Positions 40,023 to 44,173 of a stretch of DNA of 64,000 nucleotides are shown piece after piece (the first letter of the stretch is position 1; every line of letters starts with the position of its first letter). The translations under genes were made by a program, and so were the position numbers. Below the pieces are notes generated by a model. It saw nothing but the letters and a program-made list of their open reading frames with translations. It made no database searches and was not told the DNA's origin. Source of the DNA: Gammaproteobacteria bacterium (GTDB lineage: Bacteria; Pseudomonadota; Gammaproteobacteria; JAADGQ01). Where the stretch lies: contig JAKITI010000009.1 of NCBI GenBank assembly GCA_021648145.1, forward strand, positions 1-64,000, in the 5' to 3' direction.

Positions 40023-43000
40023 ATGAGATGGTTCTTGAATTGGAACAGATTATTACAAATAACAGGGATTGTTGTTATGGGTCAGTTTGCCTTTTATGGG
40101 CAAGCTGTGGCTGATGATGATGATGCTTGTGCTGTGGCGGAAGGTGTCAATGAAAGAAAGGTTCTGGCCACAATATTTGAATCGTTAGAACATAGTGTGC
40201 CTCGCAGAATGGTCAGTATCTGTAATTGGAGGGGGGTAGAGTGTAATGATGATAAATCAGTCATTGGATTAGATTTGAGTCACAACACTCTCAAAGGCAT
40301 CGTTCCAAAGGAAATCGGGGGTTTAGCTTGTCTGGAGCAACTGAATTTAAGTAATAACTCAATCACAGGCACAATTCCAAAGGAAATCGGAAGTTTAGTT
40401 AACTTGGAAATATTAGACTTAAGTAATAATTTAATCGAAGGTACCATCCCAAAGGAAATCAAAAATTTAAGAAATCTGAAAAAATTGTACTTAAATGGCA
40501 ACAGCATTAAAGGTACAATTCCAAAGGAAACTGGGAGCTTAGCCAACCTAGAAATATTGGACTTAAGTAGTAATTCAATTGAAGGTACTATTCCAGAGGA
40601 AATCGGTAATTTAGTTTCTCTGGAAATATTGGACTTAAGTAGTAATGCTCTTACAGGGATAGTCCCAAAGAAAATAGGCGACATAGAGATCCTATTCCTA
40701 GGTCTGGATTATAATGGACTTTACCCTGCTAAAGACTCAAATATTGAAGATTTCATGCCAACCCAGACGCTGGATGCGACAATTACAGGGTATACCCCTG
40801 AACAGAGTAGCATCGCCTTAAGTTGGGATGCAGTAAATTATGATCAGAAGGGGGGGTACATTATTCAGCTCTATGATGAAAAGGGTGAAAAGGTTAATGA
40901 TGCGATTGAAGTTGAGGGAAAAGGCATAAATAGCAGAGTGATTGAGGGTTTGGAAAGCGGCACTGACTATTTTGTTGAAGTTCGCTCTTTTACCAACGTT
41001 CATGGGGATAACAAAAATAAAATCATCAGTGATGGCCAATTTTCAGATCGCTTTAAAGTGATAACCAAGGATGCCGATTCAGATGGCGACGGCATTCTTG
41101 ATAATGATGAAGGCAAAAAAGAGCAGAGAAACAGTGATGGCGATGATAGACCCGACTATCTGGATAATGATGATGATAACGATGGCATACCGACCGCCGA
41201 TGAAGCGCCGGTGACGCTGGATACCGATAACGATAAGATTTTTAACTATCTAGACCCTGATGATGATAATGATAAAATTTCCACCCGTGATGAACTCACG
41301 CTGGGAACTGACCCACTAAACACCGATTCAGATGGTGATGGCCTTGCTGATGGCGATGAAGTGGGTGATATTAAGGCTCCTAGAAATACCGATGGTGATG
41401 ACCTGATTAATGCGCTTGATTCTGATGATGATGATGATGGGCTCTCCACCCTTAATGAGCGCAACATACTGAAAACCGACCCACTAAAGGCCGATTCAGA
41501 TGAAGATGGCACTCCTGATGGCGATGAAGTGGGAAGGGATGTTAATGCGCCCAAAAATACCGATGGCGATGAGCTGATTGATGCGCTTGACCCTGATGAT
41601 GATAATGATGGAATTTCCACCCGCGATGAACTCACGCTGGGAACTGACCCACTAAACACCGATTCAGATGGTGACGGCCTTGCTGATGGCGATGAAGTGG
41701 GTGATGTTAAGGCACCTAGAAATACCGATGGTGATGACCTGATTGATGCGCTTGATAACGATGATGATAATGATGGGCTCCTGACCCGTGACGAGCAGCC
41801 AGGAGACTTTGACGATGATGGAACCCCCAACTATCTAGATAAAGACGATGTCAAACCCAAGCCCGTTCAAGCTGAAGCACGAGATGGTGGTGCGGTGGTC
41901 ACAACCTCAATGGGCGGTGGCTCTATGGGCTGGGTGATGTTGATGGTGACTTTGTTAGGATTGATGCGCCGCTTTCCTTTTCAAAAAGTTTTTCCTGCGA
42001 TACTTCTTTTACTGGTCAGCGGCCAAGGAGCAGCCACCACCGATGAGCAGAATGAAACTTATGAGGTTTATAGTGAGGATCCACAGAGTGGTTTTTATGT
42101 CGGCCTGGGTCTTGGAACGAGCTTTCTTGATCCTGATGTCGGCTCTACAAAATTTTCTGTTGCCCATAACCGAGATACTGCCATCAAATTTCTGGCTGGG
42201 TATGAGGTCACCGACTATATCAGCATTGAAATGTCTGGTAACTTGATGGGGCAGGCTCATCTAAATCCGGATAACAAGTATATTAAATACAACGCTTACA
42301 CATTAGGAGCGGCCTACCACTTTTTTGGGGATATTGCGGGGTTTTCTCCCATGTTCAAATTAGGTGTGAGCAAGCTTAATAACTCGGCCAACATACAGTA
42401 TAAGCAAGATGATTCATTACTTCCTTTCGGCAGCGTGGGAGTGAAATATGAGTTTGACAACGGTTTTGCCATACGGGGTGAATATGAATATATTGCAAAA
42501 GATGCTCAGGTGTTTTCGATCAGCGCCCTCAAATATTTTGGACATAAAGCAAAAACGGTAACCGTTGTGGAAGAACCTATTGCTGAGCCTGAAATGGAAG
42601 TTTCTGAACCTTCTGTTGATGAAGCTTTTGTTGAGCCTGAAATGGATTTTTCTGAACCTTCTGTTGAGCCTGCCATAGTTGCCCCACCACTGAGCTATCA
42701 GCCTCCAGGATTAAAAACGGCGGCCTCTTCCAATGTAGATTCAGATTCAGACGGAGTAAATGATGCATCGGATCACTGCTCGGGGACTCCTGACGGTGCT
42801 CAGGTCGATGAGGTGGGCTGCGCTATGTTTGAGGGTGTGTTGCAGGGCGTTAATTTTGAATCCAACTCCTCCGAACTGACCAATAATGCAAAATATGTTC
42901 TGGGCGAGGTGGCTGTGGAGTTAAAAAACTACCCTTCCATCACAATGGAAGTGCATGCTCATACCGATAGCGACGGCTCATTAGAACATAACCAGCAGTT

Positions 43001-43175
43001 ATCAGAGCAGCGTGCAAACAGCGTGACTCGTTATCTGGATTTACTGGGTGTCTCTATGCTGCGGATGTTTCCGGTCGGGTTCGGTGAAACCAAACCCATC
43101 ACTAGTAATGACTCAGCACTCGGGCGTGCTAAAAACCGACGGGTGGAGCTTTTGGTGCTACCAGCTCAGGAGTGA
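40023..43175 (+). CDS. Surface protein: plant-type LRR, FN3, thrombospondin-3 repeats, OmpA barrel and OmpA C-domain
   Basis: The 1050-residue product has: signal peptide (to about Ala30); a cap with WRGVECN and leucine-rich repeats (about 80-230) of the plant-type LxGTIPKEIGxLxxL consensus; an FN3-like domain (about 248-347); Asp-rich calcium-binding thrombospondin-3 repeats (about 349-610); a segment GGGSMGWVMLMVTLLGLMRR (631-650) that reads like a GlyGly-CTERM sorting tail; a second signal-peptide-like stretch (648-671); an eight-strand-type barrel (about 688-855); a short TSP3 segment; and a peptidoglycan-binding OmpA domain (about 944-1050, with NFESNSSELT). AGGAG lies seven bases before the ATG. 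It reads as two envelope proteins joined in frame; an internal ATG at 41964 (Met648) has a weak AGGA before it. Confidence 0.85.
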   Translation: MRWFLNWNRLLQITGIVVMGQFAFYGQAVADDDDACAVAEGVNERKVLATIFESLEHSVPRRMVSICNWRGVECNDDKSVIGLDLSHNTLKGIVPKEIGGLACLEQLNLSNNSITGTIPKEIGSLVNLEILDLSNNLIEGTIPKEIKNLRNLKKLYLNGNSIKGTIPKETGSLANLEILDLSSNSIEGTIPEEIGNLVSLEILDLSSNALTGIVPKKIGDIEILFLGLDYNGLYPAKDSNIEDFMPTQTLDATITGYTPEQSSIALSWDAVNYDQKGGYIIQLYDEKGEKVNDAIEVEGKGINSRVIEGLESGTDYFVEVRSFTNVHGDNKNKIISDGQFSDRFKVITKDADSDGDGILDNDEGKKEQRNSDGDDRPDYLDNDDDNDGIPTADEAPVTLDTDNDKIFNYLDPDDDNDKISTRDELTLGTDPLNTDSDGDGLADGDEVGDIKAPRNTDGDDLINALDSDDDDDGLSTLNERNILKTDPLKADSDEDGTPDGDEVGRDVNAPKNTDGDELIDALDPDDDNDGISTRDELTLGTDPLNTDSDGDGLADGDEVGDVKAPRNTDGDDLIDALDNDDDNDGLLTRDEQPGDFDDDGTPNYLDKDDVKPKPVQAEARDGGAVVTTSMGGGSMGWVMLMVTLLGLMRRFPFQKVFPAILLLLVSGQGAATTDEQNETYEVYSEDPQSGFYVGLGLGTSFLDPDVGSTKFSVAHNRDTAIKFLAGYEVTDYISIEMSGNLMGQAHLNPDNKYIKYNAYTLGAAYHFFGDIAGFSPMFKLGVSKLNNSANIQYKQDDSLLPFGSVGVKYEFDNGFAIRGEYEYIAKDAQVFSISALKYFGHKAKTVTVVEEPIAEPEMEVSEPSVDEAFVEPEMDFSEPSVEPAIVAPPLSYQPPGLKTAASSNVDSDSDGVNDASDHCSGTPDGAQVDEVGCAMFEGVLQGVNFESNSSELTNNAKYVLGEVAVELKNYPSITMEVHAHTDSDGSLEHNQQLSEQRANSVTRYLDLLGVSMLRMFPVGFGETKPITSNDSALGRAKNRRVELLVLPAQE
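41259..41759 (+). repeat. Thrombospondin-3 repeat block with a near-identical 165-bp direct repeat
   Basis: Three units of about 55-57 codons lie in tandem. The first (41259-41423) and third (41595-41759) are nearly identical in DNA, both coding for DELTLGTDPLNTDSDGDGLA and then APRNTDGDDLI; the middle unit is diverged. This suggests recent duplication or gene conversion and makes copy-number change or assembly collapse possible. Confidence 0.85.
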
Positions 43176-43207: not shown

Positions 43208-43696
43208 TTATGGCGTGGTTCGGTGGGTTATCACCAATCGTGGGTCAAATGAAAGTGGCTGAGCCTCTTCAATCTTCAGCATCTTAAAATCGGGGTGCAG
43301 TGGATTGATGAGGTAATTATTCTCTTCGGGGATGATGACACTGGGAACTCCAAGCACAGCAGACGCTTGTTGCTTGACCCAATCATCGCCAATGGCCTGA
43401 GTTGAAAGTGGAATGATGTCACTCTGCCAATCTTTGGGTAAACCCTTGCCCAAATCCATGATATATGAGTCATTCACAGTCACTCTAAAAATAACAAAAT
43501 TTTGTTGTATGATGTAGGAATCTTCCAGATGAACGAGCAGCTCCAGAACGGCAAGCGCGCGCGTTGATGCCGTGTAGACCATCGCTGTGCCTTTACCATT
43601 CCAGCGGCCTCCACAAAGACGGGCACCTTCACCGTCAAAAGCATGACCACCCCATGGTTTTTCTACGATCCGAAACAGCTCCATGAGTGAGTTCAT
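43208..43696 (-). CDS. RES-domain toxin (NAD+-degrading)
   Basis: The 162-residue product matches the RES family, named for conserved Arg, Glu and Ser: Arg31 in GGRWNGKG, Tyr41, Glu52 in LAVLELLVH, and Ser119 in PSVIIPEENNYLINP. Characterised relatives (MbcT, ParT and others) degrade NAD+ or use it to modify targets, causing growth arrest. The gene follows its antitoxin by 12 bases on the same strand, the standard Xre-RES order. All key residues are present, so the toxin should be active. Confidence 0.93.
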   Translation of the reverse strand: MNSLMELFRIVEKPWGGHAFDGEGARLCGGRWNGKGTAMVYTASTRALAVLELLVHLEDSYIIQQNFVIFRVTVNDSYIMDLGKGLPKDWQSDIIPLSTQAIGDDWVKQQASAVLGVPSVIIPEENNYLINPLHPDFKMLKIEEAQPLSFDPRLVITHRTTP

Positions 43697-43708
43697 AAAG
43701 ACTCAAAT

Positions 43709-44173
43709 CTAAGAAAATACACCATGCCGAATACGAGCAATCAAGTTTCTGACTTCTTGCACCCCCATTTCCGTATCCACATAATCGGCAGGCGAAGCGC
43801 CGCCCAATGCTTTCTTTGGTGTAGTAAACCAGTGCGATGCTTTGGTTTTATCTCCCCCCAGCATATCCACTGCTTCATCAAAAACCATAGCAATACGTGC
43901 TAAACGATCCGATTCATCGGTACGCAGTTTGCCTTCGGTTTTGCGCCTTGTGAGTGTTCGAGTGGTAATGAGAGCGAGCTTTGCGACCGCTTGTTCTGTC
44001 AGCCCCATGGTTTTAGATAAGTGGATAACGACACTGACATCAAGCCCTTCCCTGACCTTGTTGATCATTGTCGCCCGGTTGTTGATATGCAACCCCAAAC
44101 TTCGCCCGAAAGGTGTCGCAGTTTTTTTTAGCTGAATATCTATTGAGGGAACAAAATGTGTGTGTGGAATCAT
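43709..44173 (-). CDS. Xre/MbcA/ParS-type antitoxin (DUF2384)
   Basis: The 154-residue product has a helix-turn-helix region in the middle (LTEQAVAKLALITTRTLTRR) and the C-terminal DUF2384 toxin-binding part, including DMLGGDKTKASHWFTTPKKA and the end RIRHGVFS. It should neutralise the RES toxin by covering its active site and repress the operon. A strong binding site (AGAGGG) lies seven bases before the ATG, and a near-consensus promoter lies upstream. Confidence 0.92.
   Translation of the reverse strand: MIPHTHFVPSIDIQLKKTATPFGRSLGLHINNRATMINKVREGLDVSVVIHLSKTMGLTEQAVAKLALITTRTLTRRKTEGKLRTDESDRLARIAMVFDEAVDMLGGDKTKASHWFTTPKKALGGASPADYVDTEMGVQEVRNLIARIRHGVFS

Follow-up and report, generated by a model that had tools for sequence, protein, structure and literature searches.

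Recurrent in-frame joining of a tagged adhesin to an OmpA-type barrel in Gammaproteobacteria suggests an envelope polyprotein

Bacteria seldom make polyproteins, and sorting tags of the GlyGly-CTERM kind are defined as protein ends. A reading frame in which such a tag runs straight into a second signal peptide and an OmpA-type protein raises the question of whether one gene can supply two separately sorted envelope proteins. The gene considered here lies in a 64,000-nucleotide stretch of gammaproteobacterial DNA (the window), and the original prediction, made from its letters alone, held that two secreted proteins had been fused at tail and leader. The comparisons below support that proposal, and the same join recurs in 36 other open reading frames (ORFs), which speaks against chance.

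Architecture of the fused gene and its internal tag

The frame at 40023-43175 (+) is single and uninterrupted and encodes 1050 aa, in the order signal peptide, leucine-rich repeats (LRR), fn3, TSP3, GGGS-helix-RR, second signal peptide, OmpA barrel and peptidoglycan-binding domain, with no stop codon between (Table 1). The TSP3 stalk is long and Asp-rich, the fn3 domain scores above cut-off in the homologue L038, and a Pro/Glu linker with one TSP3 unit separates the barrel from the peptidoglycan domain. At the junction, residues 631-650 (GGGSMGWVMLMVTLLGLMRR) continue without a stop into FPFQKVFPAILLLLVSGQGAA (651-671), after which a predicted cleavage would leave TTDEQ as the new N-terminus. 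The stretch at 648-671 had been called signal-peptide-like, and it does contain a second hydrophobic segment (residues 654-672) with an AxA-type site, GAA.

Table 1. Coordinates of the features of the fused gene within the window
Feature	Residues	Position	Strand	Basis
First signal peptide (…FYGQAVA/DDDD)	1-30	40023..40112	+	Sequence; hydrophobic ~11-22; cleavage site predicted
Leucine-rich repeats	~83-246	40269..40760	+	Pfam LRR_8 84 bits, LRR_1
fn3-like domain	261-326	40803..41000	+	Pfam fn3 22.6 bits, cut-off 25 not reached
Calcium-type TSP3 repeat stalk	~350-612	41070..41858	+	TSP3_bac, four stretches, 20.9 bits (cut-off 25)
Internal GlyGly-CTERM-type tag (GGGS, hydrophobic helix, RR)	631-650	41913..41972	+	TIGR03501; profile A4
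Second, internal signal peptide (MRRFPFQKVFPAILLLLVSGQGAA/T)	648-671	41964..42035	+	Sequence; AxA-type site GAA; cleavage predicted
Eight-stranded outer-membrane beta-barrel	691-844	42093..42554	+	Pfam OMP_b-brl 55.6 bits; AF2; Foldseek
OmpA peptidoglycan-binding domain	945-1039	42855..43139	+	Pfam OmpA 70.5 bits; Foldseek
Stop codon of fused ORF		43173..43175	+	

That the part beyond the junction is a complete OmpA-type protein is borne out by Pfam, AlphaFold (AF2) and Foldseek alike, which together place it in the OmpA family by its eight-stranded barrel and OmpA peptidoglycan domain. AF2 returned both with pLDDT above 90 and drew the junction, at low confidence, as two consecutive helices (model 27-41 and 44-57, that is, protein ~636-650 and ~653-666). 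The barrel resembles that of Escherichia coli OmpA (9fzc, TM 0.73 by target), and the C-domain resembles the OprF C-domain (5u1h) and also Pal.

The GlyGly-CTERM-like tail proposed for residues 631-650 matches TIGR03501 (GlyGly_CTERM) above the curated cut-off, at 17.4-17.7 bits against 15.5, a margin of only ~2 bits, and is without the TGLxGxG lead-in seen in most relatives. Tag profile A4 gives E 2e-7, with the window sequence itself in the profile. A six-frame scan of the 2.66-Mb genome with TIGR03501 found one other place over the cut-off, a true protein end, that of a 1987-aa FG-GAP/TSP3 protein on contig C7. The tag-profile scan of the same genome yielded three strong candidates, all of them members of the profile, namely the window protein, a 1366-aa fusion on C7 and the terminal tag on C7, so that two of the three best rhombosortase candidates are internal. 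The 1366-aa FG-GAP fusion and the 1987-aa terminally tagged protein lie on one contig (G000:C7, 36000-55000, L042).

The protease expected for such a tag is encoded in the genome. One rhombosortase, at C1:41799-42248, was detected at 158.6 bits (cut-off 84), with the GLSG and NSH rhomboid catalytic motifs visible in its sequence, and the type II secretin GspD was detected at 583.7 bits. A second GspD-like match, in two pieces of which one is flagged with an internal TAA (G000:C8:72556-73827, L169 and L170), may represent a pilus secretin or else a broken gene. MrtJ is absent from the window genome and the window tag has no Cys; against the MYXO-CTERM model the tag scores 11.7 bits where 20 are needed, the invariant Cys being missing.

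The rhombosortase substrate VesB is cleaved after the second Gly and receives a glycerophosphoethanolamine moiety (PMC6219818), and the extreme C-terminal position of the tag has been suggested to help define rhombosortase substrates (Haft and Varghese, PMC3237569). In substrates such as VesB the tag normally ends the protein, whereas 400 residues of a second envelope protein follow it in the window protein, which is therefore to be described as carrying an internal tag and not as a classical GlyGly-CTERM member. The N-terminal signal-like segment typical of the class is present, but a second helix stands after the tag where none other would be expected.

Recurrence of the fusion and its two-gene counterpart

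Nine junction-plus-barrel queries over 369 genomes of the class, followed by the fetching of 80 loci and a barrel-profile scan, yielded 37 ORFs that hold the whole join in frame, spread over 24 gammaproteobacterial genomes and 15 families; L163, L165 and L166 are less certain members with weak barrel scores, and several fusions run off their contig at the N-terminus (L089 almost wholly). All 37 have two hydrophobic segments, usually 16-30 residues apart from centre to centre, and in all 37 the loop between them is more positive than its flanks, with a net charge of +2 to +8. An AxA-type, signal-peptidase-like motif follows the second segment in 34 of the 37, against 24.4 expected from shuffles. 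The homologues thus do not present the junction as one ordinary membrane helix, the result that would have spoken against the original prediction.

What varies among the fusions is the adhesin half, which may consist of LRR and fn3, FG-GAP, SdrD_B, HYDIN/VesB-type Ig, bacterial Ig or cadherin-like domains; the tag, the second signal and the barrel are constant. The full-length homologue L038 (987 aa), from a different family, has LRR, fn3, TSP3, a GGGSMS tag, second signal, barrel and OmpA domain, is 39% identical to the window protein over 640 aa and is fused alike, and L090 is a further example of the window type. The contig of L038 (G011:C107) holds three loci of the family within ~13 kb, a 987-aa fusion, a 1224-aa fusion and a 433-aa stand-alone barrel, and this cluster is a local expansion with differing adhesin halves. 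A T-G-[LVI]-x-G-x-G lead-in, found in most tags of the set, is common to rhombosortase-type and JDVT-type barrel-linked tags, weak or absent in the window, and may be a signature of the barrel-linked family itself.

The window comes from a draft assembly of 31 contigs, and one might suspect faulty sequencing or assembly, or else that a stop codon was recently and neutrally read through in one genome. Such an origin is very improbable given the like fusion of L038 in another family, that of L090, and 37 fusions in 24 genomes with repeated changes of state on the barrel tree (below); an artefact of one assembly is effectively refuted by the recurrence together with L038. A wider phylum sample of 299 genomes added a single match to the barrel family at E 1e-25, which is a stand-alone ORF from the same class. 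Among named genome contigs no close relatives of the window protein were found, and tblastn against plasmids returned LRR, TSP3 or OmpA fragments only. The named host genomes are metagenome assemblies.

If the gene joins two proteins, relatives might be expected to carry them as adjacent genes, and this is the case at 30 loci, where an ORF that closes with a tag of this kind is directly followed by a separate barrel ORF that has a start and a signal peptide to itself, the two overlapping or standing close together. The clearest case is an orthologous pair from two species of the window's genus, on short, starred branches of the tree: the 1366-aa gene of the window genome (G000 C7) is fused and its orthologue G001 C33 is split, with a 26-nt difference that holds a stop codon and a Shine-Dalgarno (SD) sequence. 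The split barrel begins with GTG ~12 nt past the stop and is preceded by AAGGGAAG. A tree of 63 barrels requires at least 11 changes between the fused and the split state, of which 7 are imposed by branches with good support. At L094, L109, L132, L134 and L136 the adhesin and barrel ORFs are in frame with one stop codon between them, such that readthrough would yield the fusion.

Match between tag type and protease

Rhombosortase scores over its cut-off in 24/24 fusion genomes against 126/369 of the sample (Fisher 1e-12), and in 15/15 against 70/181 when each family is counted once (2e-7); the per-family count apart, the tests given here take loci or genomes as independent. A second tag type has the JDVT signature, a Cys and then D-P or D-A ahead of the helix, in 15 tags (4 fused, 11 split). 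All 15 are in MrtJ-positive genomes, as opposed to only 8 of the 52 non-JDVT tags (1e-9); these 52 all come from genomes with rhombosortase. In G102, the one genome here without rhombosortase, the tag is of the JDVT type and MrtJ is present. A Cys tag in a genome with MrtJ is found at L041, whose tag also exceeds the JDVT model cut-off (32 against 27 bits), and at L091, L122 and L153; the window is not of this type.

Nothing would make an ordinary helix pair track the protease set of its genome, and the internal tags are therefore probably recognised. On this match and the two-segment pattern, an ordinary membrane helix at the junction was rejected. It also bears on a reading in which the chain is uncut or cut once, so that the helix pair would form an inner-membrane hairpin, or signal peptidase alone would act and leave the adhesin held in the inner membrane. 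The internal position of the tag, unlike that of classical rhombosortase substrates, would suit this reading, but tracking of the protease set would be unexpected, relatives have separate genes, and from what is established for the BAM pathway an outer-membrane barrel would not be readily placed while tethered by an inner-membrane hairpin; we consider it quite improbable. On the whole, the junction is real and recurrent, and probably functional.

The gene mrtJ lies just downstream of an OmpA-barrel gene on the same contig at G212:C79, G078:C115, G045:C8, G306:C34 and G312:C54, and likewise at G146:C45, G185:C37, G066:C44, G317:C149 and G180:C131, so a JDVT locus often consists of three genes (tagged adhesin, OmpA barrel, MrtJ).

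A single chain versus an internal start

The original prediction left open whether the product is a polyprotein or two translation products. Under the latter, ribosomes would also initiate inside the tag, at Met641, Met648 or a nearby codon, making the barrel with its own signal peptide, and the long product would be a by-product or be trimmed by rhombosortase. Residues 648-671 by themselves amount to a complete signal peptide, and the separate barrel genes of relatives begin at or just after the tag. The old start suspected at Met648 is present in part as described, with an ATG at 41964 and AGGATTG ahead of it; the spacing is poor, the AGGA standing 3 nt from the ATG. The ATG of residue 641 has a weak, G-rich pairing of -5.8 kcal/mol.

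Initiation inside the fusions would be expected to preserve the start signals of the split genes, yet across the set these signals are mostly missing or weaker in the fusions. An ATG near the second signal peptide is found in 14/37 fusions against 28/30 split genes, and the best SD pairing has a median of -2.5 kcal/mol in fusions against -5.75 in split genes (p 4e-5). The difference persists with equal search regions (p 3e-4), in which a pairing of -5 or better occurs in 9/37 fusions against 19/30 split genes (p 0.002), and in 5/37 fusions no start codon of any kind lies within 16 codons of the second hydrophobic segment. The fused allele of the genus pair retains an ATG, but its SD is gone with the 26-nt change. 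As most fusions are without the start codon and SD of the split genes, one chain that is cut is likelier than two starts, and we regard dual initiation as an unlikely account of these genes. A second start is possible in some fusions, since a minority, 9/37 with the window among them, retain an in-frame start with some SD-like pairing, and the window's Met641 and Met648 keep signals that might serve.

Proposed processing and comparison with known systems

There is good reason to think, and we consider it likely, that the gene encodes a preprotein cut into a lipid-anchored surface adhesin and an OmpA-type barrel partner. The first signal peptide would export the adhesin-like LRR/fn3/TSP3 half until the Gly-rich tag acts as a stop-transfer helix, its Gly end outside and its Arg end inside. 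The short Arg/Lys loop would stay cytosolic and double as the basic leading part of the second signal peptide; that peptide would cross back from in to out and export the barrel half. In this topology, which draws on established knowledge of Sec export, both cut sites should be on the periplasmic face. Signal peptidase I would cleave after ~671 and release the OmpA-type barrel to the outer membrane and peptidoglycan, and rhombosortase would cleave at the Gly motif, leaving the adhesin half lipid-anchored at its new C-terminus, with type II secretion carrying it to the surface. The outcome would be a fixed 1:1 supply of surface adhesin and barrel partner, as with TraA and TraB. The two cleavages, the lipid attachment and the partnership of the products are what we infer, and the LRR/TSP3 domain that had been predicted to be released is expected to be anchored at the surface and not simply set free.

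The Bradyrhizobium fbcH product (cytochrome b/c1) is a bacterial polyprotein cut at an internal signal peptide. Like the scheme proposed here it has a signal peptidase cut within one chain separating two envelope proteins, but its upstream half has neither a sorting tag nor an intramembrane protease; a paper on this precedent was not found in the open-access literature.

More broadly, we lean towards a widespread class of envelope polyproteins built around a cytosolic basic loop that serves both a tag and a signal peptide. Two membrane proteases of different kinds (an intramembrane sortase-like enzyme and signal peptidase I) would yield a 1:1 lipid-anchored adhesin and barrel partner, and fused and two-gene states would interchange in evolution. 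A published counterpart is MXAN_5598 of Myxococcus xanthus, an atypical protein whose internal MYXO-CTERM motif lies between adhesin and barrel-OmpA parts; the authors of that 2025 myxosortase paper suggest a traA-traB-like gene fusion, propose processing of the N-terminal part, and cite earlier work in which sorting tags were functional away from the C-terminus (PMC11980579). MXAN_5598 resembles the window gene in having adhesin, internal sorting tag, outer-membrane barrel and OmpA domain in one ORF. It differs in being a single myxobacterial case with a Cys-type MYXO tag and myxosortase, whereas the present kind is gammaproteobacterial, recurrent, associated with GlyGly/rhombosortase or JDVT/MrtJ, and accompanied by split orthologues. 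The polyprotein idea is thus not wholly new, MXAN_5598 having been published with a different tag and enzyme and from a different phylum; what is new is the recurrence of the adhesin-OmpA fusion and its link to rhombosortase. We found no report in the open-access literature of GlyGly-CTERM tags inside OmpA fusions, nor of JDVT/MrtJ internal fusions, the recurrence, or fused and split orthologues.

TraA and TraB, the outer-membrane exchange pair, act as 1:1 complexes (PMC12045341) and are encoded by two genes overlapping by 4 bp (PMC3325183, PMC12045341). In that pair a surface receptor ending in a sorting tag stands immediately before a partner in which signal peptide and barrel are joined through a TSP3 linker to an OmpA domain. 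The 30 split loci and the 37 fusions likewise have a tagged surface protein just ahead of a signal peptide, barrel and OmpA domain. Membership of TraAB itself was rejected, since the TraB model NF033763 gave 84.9 bits against 700, at the OmpA end only and with the barrel unmatched. For JDVT-CTERM/MrtJ (NF033191, NF033192), the available account describes two-gene loci with MrtJ and one JDVT protein (Haft 2024, via PMC11980579). In the present set, four fused and eleven split relatives with JDVT-like tags occur in MrtJ-positive genomes, often with mrtJ beside the OmpA gene.

These loci would supply rhombosortase and MrtJ with many natural substrates of the internal kind, which bear on whether a free tail is needed, and they point to TraAB-like adhesin-OmpA pairs far outside the myxobacteria. 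If the halves pair, the fused gene would secure their 1:1 ratio. Tools that seek tags only at protein ends, or signal peptides only at starts, will miss genes of this class.

Two features of the surrounding DNA may be added. Open frames of 134-194 aa, Ser-rich or Leu/Lys-rich, lie on the opposite strand over the TSP3 and LRR repeats, at 41246-41830 (-) and 40280-40684 (-), and are probably mere mirrors of the codon bias of the repeats. Just downstream of the gene, at 43208-44173 (-), two small adjoining ORFs resemble by eye a RES-domain toxin and an Xre/MbcA-type antitoxin.
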